Shown: piece by piece, positions 6,184 to 44,071 of the stretch | Position numbering within the stretch: the first letter of the stretch is position 1 | Layout of the letters: every line of letters starts with the position of its first letter | DNA from: Planctomycetia bacterium | Lineage (GTDB): Bacteria > Planctomycetota > Planctomycetia > Pirellulales > Thermoguttaceae | Direction: 5' to 3' | NCBI GenBank assembly: GCA_030539295.1 | Contig: JAUNSJ010000001.1 | Span: forward strand, 294,033 to 358,032 | Length of the DNA stretch: 64,000 nucleotides | The notes under the pieces: generated by a model | Seen by the model: only the letters and a program-made list of their open reading frames with translations | The model's database searches: none | What the model was told of the DNA's origin: nothing | Program-made: the position numbers and the translations under genes

Positions 6184-7761
6184 ATGCTAAGAACCATTCG
6201 AATCCTGTTGGCCATTTTCTTTTTCACCTCAATCTCGCTGCTGTTCCTTGATTTTACCGGGACGGTTAACGACGGGGTGGGCTGGATGGCGAAGTTACAG
6301 TTGTTGCCAGCGGTACTGTCGCTGAATATTGCCGCGTTCCTGGGCATTGTGGTCACGACACTGCTTATGGGTCGATTCTACTGCTCCACGCTCTGTCCGC
6401 TGGGAATTTTTCAAGATATTGTTTCCTGGCTGGCTGGCAAAAGGAAGAAGAATCGTTTTGTCTGGCAGGCGGGGGGCCATGGGTTGCGTTACAGCGTTCT
6501 CTTCCTGTTTTGCGTGCTGATTGTCTCGGCGGTTGGAACCAGTATTTATGCCTTGGCTCTTTTAATCGAACCGTATAGCATTTTCGGACGTATGGTGTCA
6601 CAGTTCATGGCTCCGGTGGTGCTATGGGTGAATAACCTGTTCGCGTTTGTGGCGAATCAGATGGGCGGCTATCTTCCCGGACCGGTTGAACTTCGTCCTT
6701 TCAATGGCGCTATGTTCGCTATTGCCGCAGCGTCCCTGGCCATACTTTTTGTTATGGCGTGGCGCAGAGGCCGACTCTACTGCAATTCGATATGCCCTGT
6801 CGGAACGATGCTTGGACTTCTGTCGCCATTGGCTCTTTTTAAGCCACGGATTCACAACGAGCAATGTGTGCATTGCGGTTTGTGCGAAAAGAATTGCAAG
6901 TCCTCCTGCATTGATTCCAAACGAGGCCTGTTTGATTACAGTCGGTGTGTCGTGTGCGGTGATTGTATCAAGGCGTGTAAAACGCATGCGATTCAGTTCC
7001 AATTGCCGCAGGCAAAGTCGTCCGCAGTTTCTGTGACTCCAAGCGAACCGGCGGCAAAGGCTGTCGTGTCACAATCTCCTGGCGGTAAAACAAAAGAGAA
7101 ATCACAAGAGACGGCTTTGGCCCGACGCGGTTTTTTGACTACAGTTCTATGCCTGTTTGCGGTCAAGACGGTCCATGCGCAGACGCCGAAAGAAGAATTT
7201 ACCGAACGTGGCGATGGCGGACTTGCCCCGCTTAAAGACCGTGGAATTCCTCTGCGGAAAACAGCAATTGTCCCGCCGGGTGCCGCGAGTCTTCGCAATT
7301 TTCAACGGCGATGCACCGCATGCCAGCTTTGCATTTCCGCTTGTCCGAATCATGTTTTACAGCCTTCGTCTCATCTCAAGTCCATGATGAGACCGGAAAT
7401 GTCCTTCGAATACGGCTGGTGCCGACCCGAATGTACAGAATGTTCGCAAGTCTGTCCCACCGGTGCGATTCAGTTCCTGTCGACCGCGGATAAATCATCA
7501 CAAAAGATTGGACATTCCGTTTGGACAAAAGAACATTGTATTGTTCTGACCGACGATGTTCAGTGCGATAACTGTGCACGTCACTGCCCAACAGAAGCGA
7601 TTCAAATGGTCTTGCTCGACCCAAATCATCCAAATTCAAAAAAAATTCCGATCGTCGACGACGAGAAATGTATCGGGTGCGGCGCTTGTGAATTCCTCTG
7701 TCCGGCCCGGCCGGTCAGTGCCCTGCACGTCGAGGGCCACGAACGACATCGTACGATATAA
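6184..7761 (+). CDS. NapH-like membrane polyferredoxin (4Fe-4S binding protein)
   Basis: A 525-residue integral membrane iron-sulfur protein. The N-terminal half has four to five hydrophobic spans with CX3CP motifs of NapH/CcoG type (C67/C71 and C200/C204), followed by two 4Fe-4S motifs (C228-C238 and C255-C265). A basic twin-arginine-like stretch (ARRGFL near 314) and a further hydrophobic segment lead into a second ferredoxin-like region with four Cys groups (C377-C387, C413-C424, C461-C468, C496-C506). The start follows AAGGAG. It probably carries electrons between the cytoplasm and exported partners in this operon; the direction cannot be read from sequence. Confidence 0.88.
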   Translation: MLRTIRILLAIFFFTSISLLFLDFTGTVNDGVGWMAKLQLLPAVLSLNIAAFLGIVVTTLLMGRFYCSTLCPLGIFQDIVSWLAGKRKKNRFVWQAGGHGLRYSVLFLFCVLIVSAVGTSIYALALLIEPYSIFGRMVSQFMAPVVLWVNNLFAFVANQMGGYLPGPVELRPFNGAMFAIAAASLAILFVMAWRRGRLYCNSICPVGTMLGLLSPLALFKPRIHNEQCVHCGLCEKNCKSSCIDSKRGLFDYSRCVVCGDCIKACKTHAIQFQLPQAKSSAVSVTPSEPAAKAVVSQSPGGKTKEKSQETALARRGFLTTVLCLFAVKTVHAQTPKEEFTERGDGGLAPLKDRGIPLRKTAIVPPGAASLRNFQRRCTACQLCISACPNHVLQPSSHLKSMMRPEMSFEYGWCRPECTECSQVCPTGAIQFLSTADKSSQKIGHSVWTKEHCIVLTDDVQCDNCARHCPTEAIQMVLLDPNHPNSKKIPIVDDEKCIGCGACEFLCPARPVSALHVEGHERHRTI

Positions 7762-7826
7762 ACAGCTTCAGCGTGTAACAGATTAACGAAAAAACACAAA
7801 AACGCAAGGGTCATAAAGGAAGTAAG

Positions 7827-9233
7827 ATGAAAAACAAAAATCATGAATTTCGACAACATGAAATGGACCGCAGAAGCATATTGAAAATGTTTGGAACAGG
7901 AGCACTGGCCGCGGGGACCAGTATGCTCGGCTGCCGTCAGGAGCCAGGCATTTCGCCGGAAGGAACGGCAACAGGTCCGATTCCAACCGACAAAATGGAG
8001 TATCGAATCAATCCGAAGACCGGCGAAAAAGTTTCTCTGCTGGGATACGGCTGTATGCGTTGGCCGACGCGGCCGAAATCGGACGGAACTGGCGATGAAA
8101 TTGATCAGGAAGCGGTCAACGACATGATCGACTTTGCCATGGAGCACGGGGTGAACTATTACGACACCTCGCCTGTCTATGTTCAGGGATTGTCGGAAGA
8201 GGCAACCGGAATAGCTCTGGCACGTCATCCTCGTGATAAATATTTTATCGCTACAAAAATGTCCAATATGCGTATGAAAACCTTCGAACTTTCCGCTTGC
8301 CGCGCTATGTATGAAGAATCATTCAAACGTTTGCAAACCGATTACTTCGACTACTATCTGCTCCATGCGGTTGGTATGATGGGCTGGGACAAGTTCAAGG
8401 AACGAACCCTCGATAACGGTATTCTGGACTTTGTACTCAACGAGCGGGAAACAGGCCGAATTCGTAATCTCGGATTCTCCTACCATGGAGACATCAAAGC
8501 GTTCGACTATCTCTTGAATCGTGATGACATCAAATGGGATTTCGTTCAGATCCAACTCAATTACGTGGACTGGAAGCATGCGACCGGTCGCAATACGAAT
8601 GCGGAATACCTGCTGGGCGAACTGTCGAAACGCAACATTCCTGCGGTTATTATGGAGCCACTTCTCGGCGGTCGACTCTCGTCGCTTCCAACTTTTTTAA
8701 TGACCCGACTGAAACAACTTCGCCCGGAAGACAGTACCGCGTCCTGGGCATTCCGATTCGCCGGGTCGCATGCGGACGTTCTGACCGTGTTAAGCGGCAT
8801 GACCTATATGGAGCACGTGCAAGACAATGTGCGCACGTTCGCCCCATTCGAACCGCTTAATGACCAGGAAAAAATCCTCCTCGAAGAGATTGCCCAGCTC
8901 TATTTGGAATATCCCATTGTCGCCTGCAACGACTGCAAATATTGCATGCCGTGCCCCTACGGTATTGATATCCCGCGAATTCTGCTCCATTACAATAAAT
9001 GTGTCAATGAGGGGAACGTGCCCAAAAGTCAAGAAGCAGAAAATTATCGCCAGGCACGACGCGCCTTTCTGGTCGGATACGACCAAAGTGTGCCACGACT
9101 CCGACAGGCCAGCCATTGCACCGGCTGTAATAAGTGCACAGAGCACTGTCCTCAAAAGGTCGATATTGCCACAGAGATGGCGAAAATCGACCGGTTCGTC
9201 GAAGCCTTGAAACAGAATAAATTCGAAGGGTAA
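7827..9233 (+). CDS. TAT-exported aldo/keto reductase with C-terminal 4Fe-4S clusters
   Basis: A 468-residue protein. Residues 12-37 carry a twin-arginine signal (DRRSILKMFGTGALAAG) ending in LGC, possibly a lipobox. The AKR barrel covers about 60-350 with likely catalytic residues D113, Y118, K144 and H180 (YYDTSPVY, IATKMS, YYLLH). Two ferredoxin-type motifs close the protein (CNDCKYCMPCPYGID near 368, CTGCNKCTEHCP near 431). AKRs with this tail are widespread in anaerobes. TAT export suits a protein that must fold with its clusters before crossing the membrane. The start at 7827 has an AAAGGAAG ribosome site; an ATG at 7863 is the alternative. Confidence 0.88.
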   Translation: MKNKNHEFRQHEMDRRSILKMFGTGALAAGTSMLGCRQEPGISPEGTATGPIPTDKMEYRINPKTGEKVSLLGYGCMRWPTRPKSDGTGDEIDQEAVNDMIDFAMEHGVNYYDTSPVYVQGLSEEATGIALARHPRDKYFIATKMSNMRMKTFELSACRAMYEESFKRLQTDYFDYYLLHAVGMMGWDKFKERTLDNGILDFVLNERETGRIRNLGFSYHGDIKAFDYLLNRDDIKWDFVQIQLNYVDWKHATGRNTNAEYLLGELSKRNIPAVIMEPLLGGRLSSLPTFLMTRLKQLRPEDSTASWAFRFAGSHADVLTVLSGMTYMEHVQDNVRTFAPFEPLNDQEKILLEEIAQLYLEYPIVACNDCKYCMPCPYGIDIPRILLHYNKCVNEGNVPKSQEAENYRQARRAFLVGYDQSVPRLRQASHCTGCNKCTEHCPQKVDIATEMAKIDRFVEALKQNKFEG

Positions 9234-17624: not shown

Positions 17625-17767
17625 GTTCCATTTATGTTTCTACAAAAATCCCGGTCCGCTCATCAGACCCTTACTTGGGAAGCATAACAAAATTTCTCCA
17701 AGGTGTCAAGATTGATTTTGTCAAATCGGATCTCCAGCCGAAAATTGTAATGGAGGCCGGGCCGATA

Positions 17768-17781
17768 TTACAAAAATGTAA
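17768..17781. promoter_or_regulatory. Palindrome upstream of asnA shared with gltB
   Basis: TTACA-AAAA-TGTAA. It lies within a block running GATA...AAAAG at 17764-17784 that matches 43346-43366 upstream of gltB except for the four central bases. It is centred about 53 bp before the inferred asnA transcription start, a typical activator position. Confidence 0.55.
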
Positions 17782-17793
17782 AAGCATCAAGCC

Positions 17794-17821
17794 TTCACAA
17801 AGCCGGAATTTGCGTTATAAT
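17794..17821 (+). promoter_or_regulatory. asnA promoter
   Basis: TTCACA (17794-17799), a 16-bp spacer and a perfect TATAAT (17816-17821). Transcription from about 17828 gives a leader of about 125 nt before asnA. The rest of 17625-17952 holds no gene. Confidence 0.7.
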
Positions 17822-17952
17822 GGGTGTGAAATCATGTGGGAAAGCACTGGCACGGTTTTTGCAAAGTCTGCTACCGGTCGTCCTGTCCAGACGATTCGCC
17901 GGAGAAGAGGTTTTCCCGGCCATGAAAATCCGTTTCCCTAAGGAGTTTTATT

Positions 17953-18987
17953 ATGCGTTTGACTATACCGAGCGGTTACGTTCCGAAACTGGTATCAGAA
18001 ATGATGGAGCAGGCAATCCGGCTTTTAAAAGAAGATTTTCAGGAAAGCCTGGCAGCAAGATTGAATCTCCGGCGTGTGACCGCACCACTGTTCGTACTGT
18101 CCGGTACAGGCATAAACGACGACCTCAATGGCGTTGAGCGTGCGGTCTCCTTTCCGATCAAAGATATGGCGAACATGCGTGCGGAAGTGGTTCACTCGCT
18201 GGCGAAATGGAAGCGTATGAAACTGGGTGCGTACAAGATTCCGGCAGGCTACGGAATCTATACGGACATGAACGCGATTCGCGCCGACGAAGAACTTGAC
18301 AATATCCACTCGCTCTACGTGGACCAGTGGGACTGGGAAAAAACCATAACGGCCAGCGACCGCACTCTTGAGTATCTTCGGTCAACGGTGGAAGATATCT
18401 ATGAGTGTATCCTGGGAATTGAGCAGGACGTATATGCCCATTATCCCCACATTTTCCCTACGCTCCCTGACCGCATCGAATTTATTCATTCGGAGGATTT
18501 GCTCCGGGAATATCCCGACCTTACCCCAAAGGAGCGCGAGACAGAAGCCGCGAAAAAGTACGGGGCCCTGTTCCTTATGGGAATCGGAGGTAAACTGTCC
18601 GATGGTCAGAAGCACGACGGTCGCGCTCCGGACTACGACGACTGGAGCACGGAAACCTCGCCGGGCTATCACGGCTTAAATGGCGATATTATTCTGTGGA
18701 ACCCCGTTCTGAAACAGGCCTTTGAGATTTCCTCCATGGGTATACGGGTCGATAAAACGGCCCTATTGCGGCAGTTGATTCTCGAAGATTGCCAGGAGCG
18801 TAAAGAGCTTGAGTTCCACAAGGCTCTGCTGGAAGACAGAATCCCGCTCTCCATGGGCGGGGGAATCGGCCAGTCCCGACTCTGTATGTTCCTGCTGCGT
18901 TGTGCGCACATTGGTGAGGTTCAGGCCTCGCTCTGGCCCCACGAAATGATTGCCGAATGTATTAAGGGTGGGATCGCCCTTCGTTAA
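17953..18987 (+). CDS. asnA: Aspartate-ammonia ligase (asparagine synthetase A)
   Basis: A 344-residue AsnA (E. coli 330), making asparagine from aspartate, ammonia and ATP in the cytoplasm; structurally related to class II aminoacyl-tRNA synthetases. Diagnostic stretches are APLFVLSGTGINDDLNGVER, VVHSLAKWKRMKL, NAIRADEELDNIHSLYVDQW, GIGGKLSDGQKHDGRAPDYD and SMGGGIGQSRLCMFLL. The ATG follows AAGGAG. The ammonia-dependent enzyme suits an ammonia-rich anaerobic habitat. A promoter and a palindrome shared with gltB lie upstream. Confidence 0.97.
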   Translation: MRLTIPSGYVPKLVSEMMEQAIRLLKEDFQESLAARLNLRRVTAPLFVLSGTGINDDLNGVERAVSFPIKDMANMRAEVVHSLAKWKRMKLGAYKIPAGYGIYTDMNAIRADEELDNIHSLYVDQWDWEKTITASDRTLEYLRSTVEDIYECILGIEQDVYAHYPHIFPTLPDRIEFIHSEDLLREYPDLTPKERETEAAKKYGALFLMGIGGKLSDGQKHDGRAPDYDDWSTETSPGYHGLNGDIILWNPVLKQAFEISSMGIRVDKTALLRQLILEDCQERKELEFHKALLEDRIPLSMGGGIGQSRLCMFLLRCAHIGEVQASLWPHEMIAECIKGGIALR

Positions 18988-29400: not shown

Positions 29401-29705
29401 GCGCGTTTCGTGCACTGCCTGCCGCGGAGTTTACCGAACTGCCCGGGTCGTCCGAGACGGTCAAAGCTCGTCTTTACTCCGACAGCCAGTCAACCTGGTT
29501 CTACTTCGCCAATACGAACGCCGAACCCGTTGAAATCGAGTTTCAGGTACCTCAAGGCGGGACTGCTACTTGCTGGGCTCAAACCCGTTTTACTGCTGAC
29601 CTGTCTTCAAAACAACACATGACGCTCGCTCCTTATTCCCTAACGGTTTTTCGTCTCGAAGGCTCGCATACGCTCCTCGTGCACGCCATTGATTCATGCC
29701 CCTGA
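26454..29705 (+). CDS. Large exported LamG-domain protein, putative glycoside hydrolase
   Basis: A 1083-residue secreted protein. Signal peptide about 1-32. A LamG/concanavalin-like domain lies at about 40-245 (CISMWIKRDLS, WHLVAMTWDECKKGLYLDGQ, NGLIDDLKIWSEPLDDETVK). A beta-rich linker follows to about 520. A probable TIM-barrel covers about 535-950 (VGIYFEDPALGYDFGNFGYD, NMLAYPLVWYNGYIGD, FKGIILHLPRH), and the C-terminal beta-domain begins near SDSQSTWFYFANTN. Aromatic-rich barrel strands and the lectin-like domain suggest polysaccharide or glycan cleavage, but I do not recognise a GH family or catalytic acids. Confidence 0.75.
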   Translation: MSKNRIAFLLKYFAISCLLPVFAQNATQVQAEAHRVPELIFHATFDGSAEAETAAGVKTPTRAENLAFDTGLQGQALRLNADAASLLEYKTQGNLRGERGCISMWIKRDLSKEIPWQVLLTQPWQEETRIGSGALWFWLYEGALRADTSDGQDRYLSHMLNRDERWHLVAMTWDECKKGLYLDGQLVREVFNREGNLAAPVTPFEYERIPYDSFLIGNYKGWSFNGLIDDLKIWSEPLDDETVKSMYQEHGVSITFRLDNRYQFQGEPIHFPVVANNSGSQPVKVTFVLTDTKKEKQSELTLDAVPGETPCQVPGDGLGPGVYYLEIFVNGEFASREPLWVFHATVPNNSNNSQNEYASSPWSSPLNLKLIEDMDMTAIPPERFSSVGQLHTGELNGVPYLETSNESGSRFAFRLHTLDVTKLYCLEFDWPDDKQRTIDVVVQSPRLIDGPDEDEYEFQVGCVMGDEYRNSNKIITQRCLLHPRSSDESILFMCARNTEGGAAIARVRLYEVVGGLPPANEEPASPVNDWTRTVGIYFEDPALGYDFGNFGYDPENYEGMIDRLIDYMKYSGQNMLAYPLVWYNGYIGDIDNPRQHPADFIEGILAKFDRAGLEFMATINQNNFVGIRPTRNFTMSESVPAAVRPYINGMPLFTQEEIDSGSLHDSPLTIQNTGLPHPSYGWHDSSPIFNPLHPAVQQMTKNNFREILQRCKDHPSFKGIILHLPRHSLNSFGDVESGYNDYIINAFEKATGHKVEVDREVPMRGQLYYEWLKENAWDDWLNWRCQALGNWYKELAAMLKEARHDLKLGINAMTPILYSQSHFDATDCRDFWGEINREAGIDAACFADVDNMFIEQTLFPADYRWLQDRQDPKIRERLRNTEETRGQYASLLRGHNAWVHQHDRYWESPIGKESRGANNPAQSLDTPWLKEHPWHVTTLNPLAFHAMKHYIMPLRYKDVQGLSKGGFLIGSYGMEEYLTPFIRAFRALPAAEFTELPGSSETVKARLYSDSQSTWFYFANTNAEPVEIEFQVPQGGTATCWAQTRFTADLSSKQHMTLAPYSLTVFRLEGSHTLLVHAIDSCP

Positions 29706-29995
29706 ATCTACCCTGTCCCGGACTACGCCGTTCTTGGCCAACTGCGTCTTTCCGGGACCTTCTTTTCTATAGCATGACTGCAATACTTCCCTCTACCCTT
29801 TTGCAACACTGCTATAAAAGCTCACTCCCTCATTTTTGGATGAAATATATACAAGTACTTATAAAACAAGGAGATAAAATTATTTTTGGTTTTTTATAAA
29901 CTTTGGCACGCTTGTTGCTTTATATATCCTACGTAAGACGAAAAAAATAATCGATGCCAACTCTTCAGTTTGGCCTTCGATTTACCCCATACCCG

Positions 29996-30170: not shown

Positions 30171-30203
30171 AGTGTACTATCGTACTAGTACAGTAGTCAC
30201 ACT
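30171..30203. promoter_or_regulatory. GntR (YtrA-type) operator
   Basis: An imperfect palindrome: AGTGT and ACACT at the ends, ACTA/TAGT inside, and a perfect 10-bp GTACTAGTAC core (30182-30191). YtrA-type GntR repressors are known to bind AGTGTA/TACACT dyads. The site covers the inferred start point, so it fits repression by the GntR encoded 23 bp downstream. Confidence 0.75.
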
Positions 30204-30636: not shown

Positions 30637-33600
30637 CTCCGGTACAAAAACACGAAAAACTTCCCAAAAAGGATTGGGGCCAACGAATGCTCTCGATGTT
30701 TCTGCGCCTTCATCAGTCCCATCAAACAGATTCGCACCAAGAGCAACTGGTTGGAAAGAGCAAACGCAGATGGCATTCCAACGCTATTGTTGCAATTTTT
30801 TGGAAAGATTGTCGGGAATTGAGGCCCGTCTGGATGACCCTCTGGCTCCTCTTTAGCTTTGTCTGGGTCAGCACCGCAATATTCACGTCAGGAAGCGAGT
30901 TCGCGGGAACAGGTTTTCCCGTACTGACAGCGATCGGAACGACGATTACAACGTTCGTCCTGCTCGCCGCGGCCATCTCCTACGCTCGTGAAGTCGACGA
31001 GAAGCATTACGACTTTTTACGCCGCTTTCCCGTCACTCAATGCCAACTTCTCTACGGTAAAGTCCTGGCGATCATGCTCTCAACGGCCATTCTCATAATG
31101 TTGACAACGATCACAGGTTATCTGTTTTCTTTTTTTGACGCGATAACATTGCAAGAGGACGTTGTCCGCACCGTGTCATTATTCACCATTGCCTCATGTG
31201 AGTCCATGTGTATCGGATTGTTCGTTTCAACACGAAGTCGCGACACACTGCACGCGATCGTAACAAGTTTTCTCTTGTTTCTCCTATGTGAAGTTTTTCT
31301 CGGGCAATTTTTCAGTGTGAATTTGGCTTCGTGGCTCGGACGCGTTTTCGTCCCGACGGAAAGTCTGTTTCTCCCGGAAGCCTTGACGCTAAGATTCCTG
31401 TTCCTCGCAGGACTTGCTAGTCATTTTTTCGGAACCTTAAAATGGTATCGAATACACGACGGCTCAATTAAAAATATTGGCACTCCGCCGGCCTTCTCCA
31501 AAGGCGATCAGTCTCAAGTCCCCGCGGAAGCCGCCACACATCGCAAAATACATCAGCCTTTTATTGCCTTAATGAATCAGACAATGCAATCACCCAGAAA
31601 ATTGCATCCCGTGTTTTTTATTATAAGTTTCACATGCCTTGCGATTTTGTATTTTGCACTGCCTGTTGTCTTCAGTCGTTCGAACTGGTTTCCTGAAACG
31701 GAAGCTTTTTCCATGATTCCAACGATCACTATTTGTGCATTGTTTTGGATGATCATGAACCTCATAGTACAATATTTAGTGTTGTCAGCAAGCACAATTT
31801 TTACCAGTGATATTCGAGAGGAAAAGACCGGCCTGTTAACAATCCATGGTGTATCGCCTGCAAAAATGTGGTTAAGTCGAATCCTTGTCAATGGAATACA
31901 CGCACTAATAACTCTATGTGCTGCTTTCGTGGTACTGCTGCCAATTGTATTTCCAGAAATTTTCCGCTGGGGAGAGAACAACTATTACACGTTTTTTCTA
32001 GGTTCCTCAACGCAATCATACCTCCTCTCAATCCCGGCAAAAGCATACATTTTGGGAACCGCCGCGTTTATAATGCAGCTGTATTGTTCCGGGGCAGTCG
32101 CCACCGCAACGTTTCGCAGCAGAATTATCTCGTGGATGGCCATAATGATTCTCACTGCTGTTCCGATCATGTTTTTATTCGTTCTCGATCCTGTGCCTTG
32201 GGAGGCGGTTCCCTTTGCGGCTATTCTGCTCTGGTCGATCATGCTCGTGGTCTCTTTTCGTAATTTTACACGGCATATGCGTAAGCGAAAAATCTCGCTG
32301 ACCTCACCAGTTTTTATGGCTTTTATCATCGTTCCGTGGCTTCTCTACTTCTGGTTTTTACCGTGGATTTCAGCTTGGTCAATCCATCGCGAGCCCGCTT
32401 TCTTTGTGCCAGATGAAAAAATAATGAATGACCCCTACAACCCAAGCTTCGGCGAGGACAAAATCGCTCTGCAACTGGAACGGGACACTCTTCCCTGGGC
32501 ACGTAACGCGAACACTTTCGAAGCTTTGGACGCATGGGGCGTGTCAAAGAATAATGTTTTAGATACAAAAGGACCGTGGGGAATTCCAAAAGAAATCTCT
32601 TTATCGTCCAATAATTTTGCGCACGATATTGCCAATAATCTGGAATCTTCCTGGCGCAACCATATCCGTTTATGGAATGAGAATCGTCGTGCCTGTTGCG
32701 GCTATTCCACAAATTTTGAAGCAAGACTGCTAGTTAATATGTACTTTTTTTGTGAATATTTCAGCGACGTCGACCTTGAAATGCTTATCAATCTTCTTCA
32801 TCGCATTCCAGACGAACGTCCTCCGATAAAAGAACAGGCAAAAAGAATCTGGCAACTGGCCGTGCGGGCGTCACGAGTTCAGGATTCCCATCTTCAGTAT
32901 CCTCTGGCACCGTTATTTTATACCGATCAAAACGCAGTTCGACTCCAGTTCGAGCGTTGGCTCTGGAATCAGAATCAGGCCGTCGCCGAATGGGGAACAC
33001 TTCAGGAGCAGTATTATCTCAAAGGAAACCGTCTTGCCGACCCCACAAAAAAACTTAAACAGCTCAGAAAGAGAATCACTCTGTGGTCCAACCGTCTTAA
33101 ACGGATTACGGACCTACCTCTCCCATGTGTTGTGTTCTCTTCAAAAGGCGAACATTTGCACTCTATCGTCTCTGTCGAAAACTTGCGACGTACTCTCCTG
33201 ATTCAACTTGCCATATTGAGGTATTATTATCGCCATAACGATTTCCCTCCGCAACTCAACTCCCTCGTTGATGAGGGTTTTCTTCAAAAGGTTCCAGAGC
33301 CAATACAAATCGATCCTGGTCCCGGCAAACATATTCCATTTTATTATTCACAAAAAAATACTTCCGCCACGAAAAACAGCGAGCGGGAAGAATCTCAGTC
33401 ACATTGTCAACAATTCTCCTCTGGCAGTGATTTTGATGGGAAAGTCACAAATGAAAAAGAACCTAAGATCAGCCAATACACCCTATTAATTACCACGGAA
33501 AACGGGACAGCGTTCTGTGATTCAACTCCCAATCGCTCCGTGTTTACTGAAGTACCGAATGAATTGGCAATTTTACATTGGATTTTGTCAGGGGGGGCGC

Positions 33601-36653: not shown

Positions 36654-37145
36654 ATGAAATCCGAAAACAAAACAAACGTTATGCGACTGCTCGATCGTGA
36701 CAATGTTTCCTACCAGGCAGTCAAAGTCGATGATGTTCACGATGAAGACTGGTCGAGTCTTCGCACCTCGCAAATCCTCGGGGTGGAACCGGAATGCATT
36801 TTTAAAACACTCGTTTTGCGCGGCGACGTCAATCGCTTTCTTGTTTGTTGTATCCCGTCGAATGACGAACTCGACCTGAAAAAAGTCGCGCGAGCTTCCG
36901 GTGACAAAAAAGTTGAAATGATTCACGTCCGCGAAATACGTGAAATCACAGGATATGTTCGCGGTGGATGCTCTCCGATCGGTATGAAGAAAGTTTTCCC
37001 AACCTTTTTCGACGAAACAATTCTTCTTTTCGAGCATGTCTATATCAACGCTGGCGCTCTGGACACCATGCTCTTTATCGAGCCATCCAAATTACTTGAA
37101 TTTGTACATGCACACACAGCGGATCTCGTCAAGTCAATGCGATAA
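36654..37145 (+). CDS. ybaK: YbaK/EbsC-family Cys-tRNA(Pro)/Cys-tRNA(Cys) deacylase
   Basis: A 163-residue trans-acting editing enzyme that removes cysteine mischarged on tRNA-Pro. Conserved features are ECIFKTLVLRG (the catalytic Lys region), FLVCCIPSNDELDLKKVARA and GYVRGGCSPIGMKKVFPTFF. The ATG at 36654 has no clear ribosome site. A longer frame to 36570 would begin inside the -10 box of the promoter, so it is rejected. Convergent with gltD: the coding regions overlap by 12 bp at their 3' ends. Confidence 0.92.
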   Translation: MKSENKTNVMRLLDRDNVSYQAVKVDDVHDEDWSSLRTSQILGVEPECIFKTLVLRGDVNRFLVCCIPSNDELDLKKVARASGDKKVEMIHVREIREITGYVRGGCSPIGMKKVFPTFFDETILLFEHVYINAGALDTMLFIEPSKLLEFVHAHTADLVKSMR

Positions 37146-38501
37146 TCCGACTTGAAGTCCATCGGCTATAGCCCGGACGACCAGAGAAGGACCGTGCGCA
37201 GCGTCGCCCACAAACGCAATATTCTCAGCCTCGTGCACCCCAAAATCCGACAGTTGCTCCTGCCGCGTCCTTTTGAGAAAGCCCAAGGCGAGCAGGACAA
37301 GGTCACAATCAATTGTCTCCCCCTCACCTCGACGCTCGAAGGAGACCGGGCGACCAACGTCGTTGTATTTCCAGACAACCGGAACGACTTCGACGCCGGT
37401 AACGCGTCCTTCCCGCCCGATAAAACGTAAGCTCTCAAGCGACCAACGACGCAAACAACCTTCCTCATGACTTGAGGATGTTCGCAATTGCCACGGCCAC
37501 ATCGGCCACGGCGTCGATTCGGATCGATGGATCGGTGGGCGCGGCATAATTTCAATTTGTTCAACGGCACGAGCACCCTGTCGTATCGCTGTACCCACGC
37601 AATCGCTACCCGTATCGCCACCGCCTATAACCAGAACGCGGAGTCCCTGCGCGGATATTGTGCACTTTTTGCATTCGTGGCCCACGACCCGATTCTGACT
37701 GGTTAAAAAATCCAGGGCCAGATAAATACCCGATAAATTGCGACCTTCTATGTCAAGATCACGGGCAATCGGCGTCCCGGTGGCAAAAACAAGTCGGTCA
37801 TTCGTTCTCGCTATGTACTCGGCAGCAGCGTCCGAACCAATTTCCGTGGCGCATACAAACTGAATTCCCTCGTCCTGTAACAACTGAATTCGCCGTGATA
37901 CAATTTTTTTGCTAAGTTTAAAATCCGGAATACCGTAGCGAAGCAGCCCACCCGGCTCCTGATTCTTTTCATAGACGGTTACGGTATCTCCGTGACGATT
38001 CAGCTGATACGCGGCTGCCAGTCCCGCAGGCCCGGACCCTATAACAGCGGCGCGGCGTCCGGACCGTTCCTTCGGCGGACAAGGCGAAACAAGTCCGTTC
38101 TCCCAGGCATAATCGACAACGTTACGTTCGATTTGTCGAACCGCGACGGGATGATAATCTATACCCTCCGTACAACTTCCTTCACACAAGGCAGGGCAAA
38201 GGCGTGAAGTGAATTCCGGAAATGGACTCCTTTGCGCAAGGAGTTCCCACGCACGACGCCATTGCCCTCGCGCAACAGCCCGGTTTATGTCCGGGATAAG
38301 ATTACCCAGTGGACACCCAACCCCGTGGCAAAATGGAATACCACAGTTTAGGCAGCGACTCGCCTGTACACGCGATTCCTCTCGCGTTATGGGAACTTCC
38401 ACTTCGAGAAAATCATGCTTCCTCTGGCCAATGGAGCGATATTGGTGATCAGCACGTGGAATCTCGCGAAACGCTTTCGGCGAACTGATGATTCCTGCCA
38501 T
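37134..38501 (-). CDS. gltD: Glutamate synthase (NADPH), small subunit
   Basis: A 455-residue flavoprotein that passes electrons from NAD(P)H to GltB. N-terminal Cys-cluster region (SRCLNCGIPFCHGVGCPLGN), FAD-binding GSGPAGLAAAYQL, NADP-binding VIGGGDTGSDCVG, and LLALGFLKRTRQEQL near the end. AAGGAGAAG precedes the ATG. It lies 119 bp downstream of gltB in the same orientation, with an AT-rich linker. Together they form GOGAT, central to ammonia assimilation. Confidence 0.96.
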   Translation of the reverse strand: MAGIISSPKAFREIPRADHQYRSIGQRKHDFLEVEVPITREESRVQASRCLNCGIPFCHGVGCPLGNLIPDINRAVARGQWRRAWELLAQRSPFPEFTSRLCPALCEGSCTEGIDYHPVAVRQIERNVVDYAWENGLVSPCPPKERSGRRAAVIGSGPAGLAAAYQLNRHGDTVTVYEKNQEPGGLLRYGIPDFKLSKKIVSRRIQLLQDEGIQFVCATEIGSDAAAEYIARTNDRLVFATGTPIARDLDIEGRNLSGIYLALDFLTSQNRVVGHECKKCTISAQGLRVLVIGGGDTGSDCVGTAIRQGARAVEQIEIMPRPPIHRSESTPWPMWPWQLRTSSSHEEGCLRRWSLESLRFIGREGRVTGVEVVPVVWKYNDVGRPVSFERRGEGETIDCDLVLLALGFLKRTRQEQLSDFGVHEAENIAFVGDAAHGPSLVVRAIADGLQVGLSH

Positions 38502-38620: not shown

Positions 38621-41600
38621 CTATTTTATAGGAATAACCTGGACAAAACAACCGCGGCAGTCCTCCCACCGGTCGAGGATATCTTTGGCAAAAGCACTAC
38701 CAGTTCTATTTACATGTTCCTGAATAAGAGTCAGGAGTTCCGATTCCTCCTGCGAACCGCAAACGACGCTGGCCAAATCCACTGTGTCCACATTGCACTT
38801 CAAATCAAAATCATTGGCAACGTCATACACCCAGGCTGTGCCGCCTGTCATTCCGGCGGCGAAGTTCACGCCCGTTGGTCCAAGAATAACGACGCGACCG
38901 CCAGTCATATATTCACAGCCGTGATCTCCAACGCCCTCCACAACAGCGTCGAAACCACTGTTTCGGATCGCGAATCGCTCACCCGCCTGTCCGCAGAAAA
39001 ACATTTTTCCCGAAGTACCACCGTATCCGGTAACGTTACCCACAATGACATTTTCATTCGGTTTGTAGCTGGTATCGCGAGACGGTTTAACGACAATTAT
39101 CCCACCAGACAGTCCCTTCCCCACATAGTCATTTGCTTCTCCTTCGAGTTCCAAAAGCAGGCCGCGTGCCAAAAAGGCACCGAAACTCTGCCCTGCTGTG
39201 CCCGTAAAATGCGCGAGAATTGTTTCCGGCGGCAGGCCTTCTGGACCGTAGCGTCGGACAAGTTGTGAGGACAGAACGGTCCCAACGGCGCGGTCGACAC
39301 TTTGCAGTGTGCAGGCCACATCACACGCTTTACCCGCAGCTAGCGCGGTTGCGACTTTTGGAATCAGAACAGTTTCATCGAATGTCTGTTCCGCAAGGTA
39401 CGGTTGTGCAAATCGAACCGCGTCGCCCGGTACATATTCAAAAATTTTGGAAAAATCCAAATGGCGTGTCTTGTAAAAATCAATCGCTCTATTTTTTTGC
39501 AATAAATCGGATCGTCCGACTGCTTCGTCGAGCGAACGCAAACCGAGCGAAGCCAGATATTCCCGGACTTCCTGCGCAAGCAATCGCAGAAAGTTTTCGA
39601 TCGATTCCGGCTTGCCGTGAAAACATTTGCGCAATTCCGGATCCTGGGTCGTTATACCAACCGGACAACAATTATCATGACATCGACGGAGCATAACACA
39701 ACCGAGGCAAACGAGCAACGTCGTCGCGAACCCGAATTCTTCCGCTCCGAGCAGCGCCGCAATAACAACGTCGCGCCCAGTCTTGATCTGGCCATCTACC
39801 TGAAGGCGAACGCGGTCGCGAAGACGATTCAGGACGAGCGTCTGATGTGTTTCCGCAAGTCCAAGCTCCCACGGCATACCCGCATGCTTTATACTTGTCA
39901 GTGGCGCCGCTCCTGTGCCACCATCGTGACCACTAATCAAGATAACGTCCGCATGCGCTTTCGCAACGCCTGCGGCAACCGTACCAACTCCGGATTCCGA
40001 GACCAGTTTGACACTGATTCGAGCTTCACGATTCGATGCACGTAAATCATAAATTAATTGGGCAAGATCCTCTATCGAATAGATATCGTGATGCGGGGGC
40101 GGCGAAATAAGGGTAACGCCCGGTGTGCTGTGTCGTACTCGCGCGATATGCTCATCCACCTTACGACCTGGCAGTTGTCCCCCTTCGCCCGGCTTGGCCC
40201 CTTGCGCCATTTTTATCTGCAATTCCTTCGCACCAGCCAAATAATCAATGGTCACGCCAAAACGACCACTCGCGATTTGACGTATCGCACTTGCCCGTAC
40301 TTCTCCCTTTTCGTTCGGCGTATTGCGATAGGGGTCTTCTCCGCCTTCGCCACAATTGCTCCTGGCACCAAGTCGGTTCATGGCAATTGCGATTGCTTCG
40401 TGTGCCTCCGGGCTAAGCGAACCAAGGCTCATCGCGCCCGACACAAAATGACGTACAATCGAGTCAACCGATTCGACGTCTTCAATCGGGACAGGTTCAG
40501 TTTTTTTGAATTCGAAGAGTCCGCGAAGGGTGCACAGGTGATTTGCCTGTTCGTTAATGCGCGACGCGTATTGACGATACAGTTGCATATCGTTATTTTG
40601 AACCGCCTGACGGAATAGATTCAGCGTTTCAGGCGTCCATAAATGATGCTCACCTGTTCGCCGATATTTATACTGGCCCGCCATGGGGAGCATGTTCGCC
40701 GGTTCCGACATTGCAATACGGCGTGACTTGACTTCCTGGGCAATTTCCGTCAATTTTATCCCACCCACATTGGAGGTTGTCCCCTTGAAATAATGTTCGA
40801 TAACAGAGGAATCCAGACCAACGGCCTCGAAAATTTGTGCCCCACGATAGCTTCGTAACGTGCTGATACCCATTTTCGACATGACCTTGAGTAAGCCCAT
40901 ATCAACGGCTTTTATATAGTTTTCTGTTGCCGTTACGCTATCAAGCGGAATTTCTTTATTATCGACCAGAGCAGCAATCGACTCCAGCGCAAGCCAGGGA
41001 TGAATTGCCGTAGCACCGTACCCCAACAAAATCGCATAGTGCATAATTTCTCGCACTTCTCCTGATTGCACAATCAGACCAACAGAAGGCCGCTTACCCA
41101 CATCTGTCAGTCGGCGATTAACAGCCGCGGTCGCCAGCAAAGAAGGAATCGGCAAACAGTCCTCATCCAGGTCACGATCACTTAAAATTAAAATTTTGCA
41201 ATCGTCATTAACGAGTTCGACAGCCCGATCCTGCAAGTCGTCCAGAGCCGTCTTCAAATCGAGAGGCGAACCGTAATCGTGCCAGGCAAGAGGAAGCACC
41301 GCTTTTTTGAGCGGGACAGAATCAGCACTAAGTCGAGCCAAGTCTTCGCCGGTCAAAACGGGCCGCGGTAATTTTATCAGATGGGCGCACTGCGCGGCAT
41401 CGTCGAGAATATTACCACTATTGCCAATATAGGTTGTCAGACTCATAACGAGTTCTTCGCGTATGGGGTCAATTGGCGGATTGGTAACCTGTGCGAAATG
41501 CTGTTTAAAATAATTGAACAATAATTGTGGTTTATCGGAAAGAACGGCCAAAGCAGCGTCATTTCCCATGGACCCGATCGGTTCATGACCCGTCTCGGCC

Positions 41601-43153
41601 ATAGGCTCAAGAATCATCTCCAGATCTTCTGCTGTCCACCCGAACCGCCGCTGACGTCCAATGAGATTCGGACAAACCCGCTCCGGTACAACGGAGTCGA
41701 ACAGACCATTAACGACAATTTTATTCTCCTGCGACCATCTGCGGTATGGTTTCTGTCTCGCTATTCTGTTTTTTATCTCGGCATCGTAAACGACTCGATG
41801 ATTCGTCAGGTCACACCAGATGATTTCGCCTGGTCGCAAACGCCCCTTGCGAACGATTTTTTTCGGGTCCATATCGAGCACGCCGGTTTCCGAGGCCAGG
41901 ACAAACAAACCATCGTCAGTAATCGTGTATCGCGCCGGACGCAGACCGTTGCGATCGAGCATCGCACCCAAATTAACACCATCGGAAAAGGCAACCGCAG
42001 CCGGCCCGTCCCAAGGCTCCATTTGTGCCGAATGATAATCAAAGAAGCCTCGCACATCGCTCCCCAAATGATACTTCTTACCCCAGGCGCCGGGCATGAG
42101 CATGAGCATGGCGTGCGGCAGGGACCGACCGGCGGCGACAAGGAGTTCGAGCATGTTATCCAGGCACGCCGAATCGTTCTGCCGGTCATCAATGAGCGGC
42201 AGAAGTTTCTTCAGGTCGTCGCCAAACAAGTCGCTGACGAGGAACGGTTCACGACTGCGCAGTTGATTCAAATTCCCGCGAAGTGTATTAATTTCACCAT
42301 TATGTGCCAAGTATCGAAATGGATGAGCGAGCTGCCAAGTCGGAAACGTATTGGTACTGTATCGCTGATGCACAACAGCCAGCGGGCTGGCCAGAAGGGG
42401 ATGCGAGAGATCGGGATAGAATCGGTCGAGTTGGGTTGCCAGTAAGAGTCCCTTATAGACGATACTTCGACTCGAAAAACTGGGCAGATAGCAATCCGCC
42501 ACTTCCTTTTCAATCACGCGACGCATAACGAACAGCTTGCGTTCAAAAGCCGCCTGGTCCGCGAAATCTTCCCCGGCAACGAAAAGCTGACGTATTTTCG
42601 GGCAGCTTGTCTGCGCCGACTTGCCAATAAACTGCGGGGCAGTCGGGACATCACGCCAATAGAGGACCCTTCCCCCTTCCCGACGCACGACCGCTTCGAT
42701 CCGTTGTTCGTCCTGCTCGCCGCCAAAGATCATGGCCACCGCGTATTGACCTGCCGGCGGAAGTGGAATCGGGAGGACATCGCGGAAGAACGCGTCCGGA
42801 ATAGCAAAAAGAATCCCAGCCCCATCCCCGGTCTCCGGGTCACCGCCAGCCGCTCCCCGATGCATAAGGCGGCGCAAAACCGTCAGCCCGTTCTCGATAA
42901 TACGGTGGTCCGGCTGATTCGTCAAAGTAGCAACCATGCCAACGCCACAGGCGTCATGTTCATTCGCAAAGCTATACAAACCTTTATCTTGCGGCAGGCG
43001 AAGTGTCGACGAAGTGCGGAGATATCCTCCCGGAACGTCGCGGTCTGGTCCTTTGTGCCCACACTCGTTTTTTCGCGTCAGGACAGACTTCTGCTCTTGC
43101 ACGCACAAGCTTCTCTCACTCTTGCAAACGCATCGCTGACCACTCGGTTCCAT
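38621..43153 (-). CDS. gltB: Glutamate synthase (NADPH), large subunit
   Basis: A 1510-residue GOGAT large subunit. The glutaminase domain begins at the processed Cys of ACGVGMVATLTNQPDH (Cys 69 from the chosen start). Central and FMN domains follow (GAMSLGSLSPEAHEAIAIAM, ISGHDGGTGAAPLTSIKHAG), then the 3Fe-4S motif CLGCVMLRRCHDNCCPVGIT and the C-terminal GXGXG beta-helix (GKGLSGGIIVVKP). The start at 43153 has a textbook GGAGGAGAAGT site; a longer frame to 43231 lacks one. The 68-residue propeptide is longer than the usual 10-45 and Cys-rich. Confidence 0.96.
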   Translation of the reverse strand: MEPSGQRCVCKSERSLCVQEQKSVLTRKNECGHKGPDRDVPGGYLRTSSTLRLPQDKGLYSFANEHDACGVGMVATLTNQPDHRIIENGLTVLRRLMHRGAAGGDPETGDGAGILFAIPDAFFRDVLPIPLPPAGQYAVAMIFGGEQDEQRIEAVVRREGGRVLYWRDVPTAPQFIGKSAQTSCPKIRQLFVAGEDFADQAAFERKLFVMRRVIEKEVADCYLPSFSSRSIVYKGLLLATQLDRFYPDLSHPLLASPLAVVHQRYSTNTFPTWQLAHPFRYLAHNGEINTLRGNLNQLRSREPFLVSDLFGDDLKKLLPLIDDRQNDSACLDNMLELLVAAGRSLPHAMLMLMPGAWGKKYHLGSDVRGFFDYHSAQMEPWDGPAAVAFSDGVNLGAMLDRNGLRPARYTITDDGLFVLASETGVLDMDPKKIVRKGRLRPGEIIWCDLTNHRVVYDAEIKNRIARQKPYRRWSQENKIVVNGLFDSVVPERVCPNLIGRQRRFGWTAEDLEMILEPMAETGHEPIGSMGNDAALAVLSDKPQLLFNYFKQHFAQVTNPPIDPIREELVMSLTTYIGNSGNILDDAAQCAHLIKLPRPVLTGEDLARLSADSVPLKKAVLPLAWHDYGSPLDLKTALDDLQDRAVELVNDDCKILILSDRDLDEDCLPIPSLLATAAVNRRLTDVGKRPSVGLIVQSGEVREIMHYAILLGYGATAIHPWLALESIAALVDNKEIPLDSVTATENYIKAVDMGLLKVMSKMGISTLRSYRGAQIFEAVGLDSSVIEHYFKGTTSNVGGIKLTEIAQEVKSRRIAMSEPANMLPMAGQYKYRRTGEHHLWTPETLNLFRQAVQNNDMQLYRQYASRINEQANHLCTLRGLFEFKKTEPVPIEDVESVDSIVRHFVSGAMSLGSLSPEAHEAIAIAMNRLGARSNCGEGGEDPYRNTPNEKGEVRASAIRQIASGRFGVTIDYLAGAKELQIKMAQGAKPGEGGQLPGRKVDEHIARVRHSTPGVTLISPPPHHDIYSIEDLAQLIYDLRASNREARISVKLVSESGVGTVAAGVAKAHADVILISGHDGGTGAAPLTSIKHAGMPWELGLAETHQTLVLNRLRDRVRLQVDGQIKTGRDVVIAALLGAEEFGFATTLLVCLGCVMLRRCHDNCCPVGITTQDPELRKCFHGKPESIENFLRLLAQEVREYLASLGLRSLDEAVGRSDLLQKNRAIDFYKTRHLDFSKIFEYVPGDAVRFAQPYLAEQTFDETVLIPKVATALAAGKACDVACTLQSVDRAVGTVLSSQLVRRYGPEGLPPETILAHFTGTAGQSFGAFLARGLLLELEGEANDYVGKGLSGGIIVVKPSRDTSYKPNENVIVGNVTGYGGTSGKMFFCGQAGERFAIRNSGFDAVVEGVGDHGCEYMTGGRVVILGPTGVNFAAGMTGGTAWVYDVANDFDLKCNVDTVDLASVVCGSQEESELLTLIQEHVNRTGSAFAKDILDRWEDCRGCFVQVIPIK

Positions 43154-43349
43154 ACTTCTCCTCCAACCTTTTCTCTGCATGCCCACACTTGGCCCGGGCG
43201 ACCGCTCTGGACGCCTGGAAAAACCGCTCACTTATACTGCAAAACGCATGCCAAACAGATTTAATCGCCCTCTCGCCCTATATTTTCCCAGAAAACTCGC
43301 TCACATCACTCTTCAACACCGTTCTTTTCGCCACTTCTCGAAAAAGATA

Positions 43350-43363
43350 TTACATTTTTGTAA
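43350..43363. promoter_or_regulatory. Palindrome upstream of gltB shared with asnA
   Basis: TTACA-TTTT-TGTAA, embedded in the same GATA...AAAAG context (43346-43366) as the asnA site at 17764-17784, differing only in the four central bases. It lies about 190 bp before the gltB start codon. Likely a binding site for a dimeric nitrogen-responsive regulator. Confidence 0.55.
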
Positions 43364-43445
43364 AAGTATCCCCCGGACATTTTACATTTACGTCCCCTCG
43401 CCTTCGCTTTTTGCTATTTTTTCTCCGTAAAAACCAAAAAGAGAC

Positions 43446-43588: not shown

Positions 43589-44071
43589 ATGGATAACAAC
43601 GACAAACTCGACCAGTCTTTCCTTAAACTCTTTAAACTACTCGACATGCTACGCGATTGCGGTGCGAAACATCTGGGTAAAAAGAAACTCGAATTCCTTG
43701 TAACTCTCTCCTATCGTCAGGAGCGATCTCTTTTTATTGTGGACAACGCCGCGAAGGAGCATCCGGACGGAATATGCCAGAAGGACCTTGCTCGCGAACT
43801 CAAAACGACCATGCCAGCCACCTCGGTCCTCGTCGAAAGCATGATTAAAAAGAATCTTTTCGTCCGAACTCGAAGCGAACGCGACCGACGCAGCTACTGC
43901 CTCCACCTGACTCCGTTCGGCCAGCAAACTCTTGAACTCATCAAAACAAATATCCATAATCTCACCTCCTGCGTCACCGAAGGCATCAGCCACAGCGACC
44001 TTGAATGCTTTTGTAATTCCGTCGACCACATCTCCGACCGACTCGAAGTTTTTATTCGAAAACGTACCTGA
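43589..44071 (+). CDS. MarR-family transcriptional regulator
   Basis: A 160-residue winged-HTH regulator. The DNA-binding core spans about 45-110 (GICQKDLARELKTTMPATSV, VESMIKKNLFVRTRSERDRR, SYCLHLTPFGQQTLELI, including the typical wing D/R-rich DRRS). AAGGAG precedes the ATG. It follows a divergent arrangement with gltB and precedes the IclR gene. Target and ligand unknown. Confidence 0.9.
   Translation: MDNNDKLDQSFLKLFKLLDMLRDCGAKHLGKKKLEFLVTLSYRQERSLFIVDNAAKEHPDGICQKDLARELKTTMPATSVLVESMIKKNLFVRTRSERDRRSYCLHLTPFGQQTLELIKTNIHNLTSCVTEGISHSDLECFCNSVDHISDRLEVFIRKRT

Follow-up and report, generated by a model that had tools for sequence, protein, structure and literature searches.

A palindrome upstream of ammonia-assimilation genes in a planctomycete as the likely enhancer site of a NifA-related one-component sigma-54 activator

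The palindrome TTACA-N4-TGTAA, which precedes asnA and gltB in a planctomycete genome (G000, the source genome of the DNA analysed here), is very likely the enhancer site of a NifA-related one-component sigma-54 activator of the GAF-AAA+-HTH type, which is predicted to be encoded on C83 of the same genome and to control a nitrogen-assimilation regulon. Most probably, this is a small ammonia-assimilation regulon of a gut-type planctomycete that, judged from site occurrence, is also present in Victivallaceae and Fibrobacter. The evidence is comparative throughout and consists of the conserved site, its spacing and its promoter, the presence of sigma-54, and the co-occurrence and co-location of the regulator gene.

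In the window, i.e. the whole stretch of 64,000 nucleotides that was analysed, TTACA-N4-TGTAA occurs in exactly two copies (17768-17781 and 43350-43363). The 21-bp block that the sequence-only reading had reported as shared between asnA and gltB was confirmed, since GATATTACAAAAATGTAAAAG at 17764-17784 and GATATTACATTTTTGTAAAAG at 43346-43366 differ solely in the 4-bp spacer. The same 25-bp context surrounds both palindromes, so that the predicted upstream activator sites extend over 17764-17788 on the plus strand for asnA (GATATTACAAAAATGTAAAAGCATC) and over 43346-43370, with no strand assigned, for gltB (GATATTACATTTTTGTAAAAGTATC). When up to three mismatches were allowed, pattern searches of the 4.13-Mb genome returned this context at these two loci only, and the control returned none. 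The bare palindrome is not over-represented, because its four genomic copies equal the four copies of the reversed control pattern. Three of the four copies have an all-A/T spacer (TTACA-WWWW-TGTAA), and these precede asnA, gltB and glnN; the third is located about 140 bp before glnN, the gene of a type III glutamine synthetase, with carA and then carB behind it. Each palindrome in the window is accompanied by an exact half-site. The half-copy that had been noticed near gltB is a real TTACA at 43382-43386 (plus strand), 32 bp from the main site, and asnA has one as well, a TGTAA at 17746-17750 (plus strand), 31 bp from the main TGTAA.

The gene asnA (17953-18987, plus strand) encodes an aspartate-ammonia ligase (PF03590, E 1.2e-104) and is preceded by a perfect sigma-54 box, TGGCACGGTTTTTGCA, at 17848-17863 (plus strand). 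The palindrome therefore lies about 100 bp before the start belonging to this promoter, and its distance from the asnA ATG is about 170 bp. A strong sigma-70-like promoter, TTCACA-N16-TATAAT, at 17794-17821 (plus strand) begins 12 bp past the palindrome and ahead of the sigma-54 promoter; it is a consensus match only (11 of 12 positions) and a possible second asnA promoter. The gene asnA may have two promoters, as glnA has in E. coli. The earlier statement that the palindrome lies 53 bp before the asnA start point holds for the sigma-70-like promoter but not for the perfect sigma-54 promoter further downstream. The open frame of gltB, the large subunit of glutamate synthase with the domains GATase_2, Glu_syn_central, Glu_synthase and GXGXG, covers 38621-43231 on the minus strand, and its perfect sigma-54 box, TGGCATGCGTTTTGCA, is found at 43238-43253 (minus strand). 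The GTG at 43231 with which this frame starts is too far upstream; the true start is probably near 43030 or below, because the Pfam domain begins only at residue 95. The small subunit is encoded directly downstream by gltD (37134-38501, minus strand; Pfam Fer4_20 and Pyr_redox_2). The sigma-54 promoter of glnN in the same genome is TGGCATGGTTTTTGCT. Perfect sigma-54 boxes number four in the window, compared with 0.13 expected. Besides those of asnA and gltB, a perfect box, TGGCACGCTTGTTGCT, is located at 29904-29919 (plus strand), between a frame ending at 29705 and one starting at 30172.

The arrangement of sites and promoters recurs in other regions. In 17 of 20 regions, the palindrome has an exact half-site at a distance of 29-33 bp, compared with six matches over 50 other offsets. 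Among 40 target upstream regions, which were partly selected for carrying the site and come in part from related, non-independent genomes, 16 contain a perfect sigma-54 box and 26 a box with no more than a single mismatch; for 160 further upstream regions taken from these loci, the corresponding numbers are two and six. A search for sigma-54 (RpoN) was positive in 11 of 12 genomes. The palindrome and its second site form a tandem with a spacing of about three helical turns, for the most part 90-280 bp upstream of a sigma-54 promoter. Judged by sequence, this is the anatomy of an enhancer. The sequence-only reading had seen no known regulator that fits; this did not hold, as the site is built like a pair of sigma-54 enhancers and the likely activator belongs to a known kind of protein.

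The suggestion that the site serves nitrogen assimilation is borne out by the third copy before glnN and by the copies in relatives, which precede glnN, gltB, asnA and carA and, in degenerate form, amtB; G020 and G022 are among the relatives with the site upstream of asnA. Perfect sites with an A/T spacer were counted in ten genomes of the family: four in G002, three each in G000, G020 and G098, two each in G097, G099 and G100, and one each in G003, G022 and G095. These counts are lower bounds, as the genomes are incomplete, and relatives do not amount to independent observations. With a single exception, the 22 sites precede glnN, gltB, asnA or carA; the exception, at position 1501 of L030 in G002, is found before a nuoE-like gene and has no sigma-54 promoter. 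In the five genomes of genus g52 with matches, ten sites face none of the reversed control. In the remaining relatives, the total number of sites is close to that of the control, and therefore it is the position that is telling and not the number. The grounds that had been named for rejecting the site, random scatter or absence before orthologous genes, largely do not apply, although many asnA orthologs, those of G001-G003 among them, lack the site.

The core locus of the family consists of carB-carA-glnN facing gltB-gltD with the site in between, and glnN is divergent from gltB in G003, G020, G022, G095 and G099. A search for the ammonium transporter gene amtB (PF00909) was negative in G000, G002 and G020; where the gene is present, it is preceded by sites with one or two mismatches in four genomes (G095, G100, G003 and G001), and these four and G097 have a sigma-54 box there with one mismatch at most. 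In g52, the palindrome of carA is located 20-36 bp before the start codon and is not accompanied by a sigma-54 promoter (L092 2669, L093 10044, L094 10888); these sites match an enhancer role poorly. A regulon confined to planctomycetes had been proposed, which is too narrow: in a scan of named genomes, TTACA-N4-TGTAA was also found upstream of glnN at two loci of Victivallaceae/Lentisphaeria and at five of Fibrobacter. No sigma-54 promoter is recognisable downstream of the Fibrobacter N4 sites. The scan also included a Thermoguttaceae genome whose glnN is identical to the one in family member G023, which gives the family its name.

In Fibrobacter, the site separates glnN from a divergent gene for a short AAA+ activator. 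Orthologs with 52-57% identity to this activator are encoded in ten of the 11 motif-bearing genomes of the family (G000-G003, G020, G022, G095, G097, G099 and G100); none was found in G098, which is 73% complete and has the site. Four motif-free relatives have best matches of at most 47%. The candidate activator gene of G000 (C83, about 31594-33108) stands by itself, and no site accompanies it. Its product, like the orthologs in the family, has a GAF domain, an AAA+ sigma-54 interaction domain (PF00158, E 1.1e-70) and a Fis-type HTH (PF02954, E 2.2e-11). With this protein as query, matches of 68-69% were obtained in both Victivallaceae/Lentisphaeria genomes and of 58-60% in Fibrobacter. The regulator gene adjoins gltBD in G002, G095, G097, G099 and G100 and amtB in G001, and the regulators form one clade with a support of 100/99, apart from response-regulator and FHA-type activators. 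In genus g21, which is nested within the glnN tree, there is no site, and the regulator is absent from both genomes searched. Among genomes whose examined glnN has no site, G142, G144 and G146 gave nothing above 48%, G143, G145 and G147 gave one match each at 57-59%, and the Fibrobacter genome G141 gave one at 59%. G143, G145 and G147, with a related regulator but a siteless glnN, speak against the enhancer model; their recognition helix reads SPRMMNYR, as in the long Fibrobacter proteins, whereas it reads SPRxxHYK, HYN or LYK in the presence of the N4 site.

Other assignments of the site were weighed against activation by this protein. It is unlikely that the sigma-54-type protein binds the site mainly as a repressor or road-block at some genes while another protein activates. 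The carA sites of g52 close to the start codon and the Fibrobacter N4 sites without sigma-54 promoters would suit such a role, as would the one Fibrobacter protein with GAFIGA. In planctomycetes, however, most sites of glnN, gltB and asnA are followed by good sigma-54 promoters at a distance of about 90-280 bp; the loop motif is GAFTGA in the G000 regulator, and each planctomycete ortholog has either GAFTGA or GSFTGA. The Fibrobacter protein in question is the short activator at 6797-8008 (minus strand) of L103, in which GAFIGA replaces GAFTGA; it may no longer contact sigma-54.

Binding by the product of the MarR-type gene that is divergent from gltB in the window (43589-44071), with asnA as a secondary target, is less likely still. 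MarR proteins bind to palindromes between divergent genes and the gene is adjacent, with a weak MarR domain, but in the five relatives named above for their divergent arrangement it is glnN and not a MarR gene that is divergent from gltB, and the tandem spacing of 29-33 bp together with the sigma-54 promoters suits an enhancer-binding protein. An NtcA-like regulator of the CRP/FNR family that would act next to the asnA sigma-70 promoter can be given hardly any weight. The half-site ATTACA resembles GTAACA of NtcA, ACA-N4-TGT agrees with the central portion of the NtcA box, and the sigma-70-like promoter follows the palindrome closely; however, the targets have sigma-54 promoters, and no CRP-family HTH above the cut-off was found in eight genomes by a search that was positive in 14 of 14 control genomes. 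This regulator is refuted unless its gene lies in the missing part of G000 and, in every relative, falls within a gap. An Lrp/AsnC regulator, considered for the 31-bp spacing and the asnA target, was rejected, as an AsnC-type effector domain was found in none of 20 genomes.

The preferred reading, an enhancer site bound by the C83 protein, resembles the NtrC regulon of enterobacteria in its tandem palindromic sites about three turns apart, in the sigma-54 promoters of ammonia-assimilation genes and in an AAA+ activator with GAFTGA. In glnAp2, the NtrC sites are located at about -108 and -140. The site differs from the TGCAC-type site of NtrC, and the targets include a type III glutamine synthetase and asnA. 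The regulator itself has a GAF and no receiver domain; it is not NtrC because the receiver domain is absent, and phosphorylation by NtrB is therefore not expected. With NifA, it shares the GAF-AAA+-HTH architecture over the full length; NifA is also the best NCBIfam match and the nearest solved structure (PDB 9qq6). However, the G000 regulator reaches 462.6 bits, below the equivalog cut-off of TIGR01817 (528.85), the site is TTACA-N4-TGTAA and not the UAS TGT-N10-ACA, and the targets belong to ammonia assimilation and not to nitrogenase. For DVU1949 of Desulfovibrio vulgaris, a one-component sigma-54 activator, a regulon of nitrogen metabolism and transport with nine operons has been predicted by comparative genomics (PMC4641369); compared by description only, it is likewise a one-component sigma-54 nitrogen regulon but belongs to a different phylum. 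In a survey of sigma-54 promoters, glutamine-synthetase-like proteins are mentioned in general terms among planctomycete targets (PMC12316311). The open literature searched contains no report of the motif, of a NifA-like regulator with glutamate synthase or of NifA with type III glutamine synthetase, and hardly any description of nitrogen control in Planctomycetota.

From these comparisons, we infer direct binding by the C83 protein, activation and not repression, and nitrogen limitation as the signal. Dimers of the activator would bind the strong palindrome and the second site about three helical turns away and oligomerise; the DNA would then loop to sigma-54 polymerase at a TGGCAY-N5-TTGCW promoter about 100-130 bp downstream, which would be opened by ATP hydrolysis of the activator. 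In this way, asnA, gltBD and glnN could be turned on for ammonia assimilation under nitrogen shortage, which might be sensed by binding of 2-oxoglutarate to the GAF domain or via a PII protein. Nitrogen control in Planctomycetota thus has a ready hypothesis in which operator, promoter, regulator gene and targets are all named.

Beyond this, an evolutionary scenario can be offered tentatively, as one that may well be wrong. In three gut-dwelling groups, an activator of the NifA lineage would have been recruited as a one-component master regulator of ammonia assimilation in the role of NtrBC, and horizontal transfer may have carried the operator, the regulator and the type III glutamine synthetase together. 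The HYK/HYN/LYK helix would read TTACA-N4-TGTAA, and the NYR paralogs of Fibrobacter would read an N5 site. That the type of recognition helix sets the N4 or N5 spacing is a prediction from a correlation in few lineages. The enhancer hypothesis itself suggests a route by which a one-component NifA-like protein could take over the role of NtrBC, and nature offers two comparison series for it, namely a genus without the regulator that is also siteless and another recognition helix that goes with another spacing.

Glutamine synthetase paralogs (glnN) of Fibrobacter are preceded by pairs of the TTACA-N5-TGTAA type, 29-30 bp apart and before sigma-54 promoters. Relative to glnN, they are located at -188 and -158 in L111 and at -192 and -163 in L143, and a paralogous regulator with the other recognition helix is encoded alongside.
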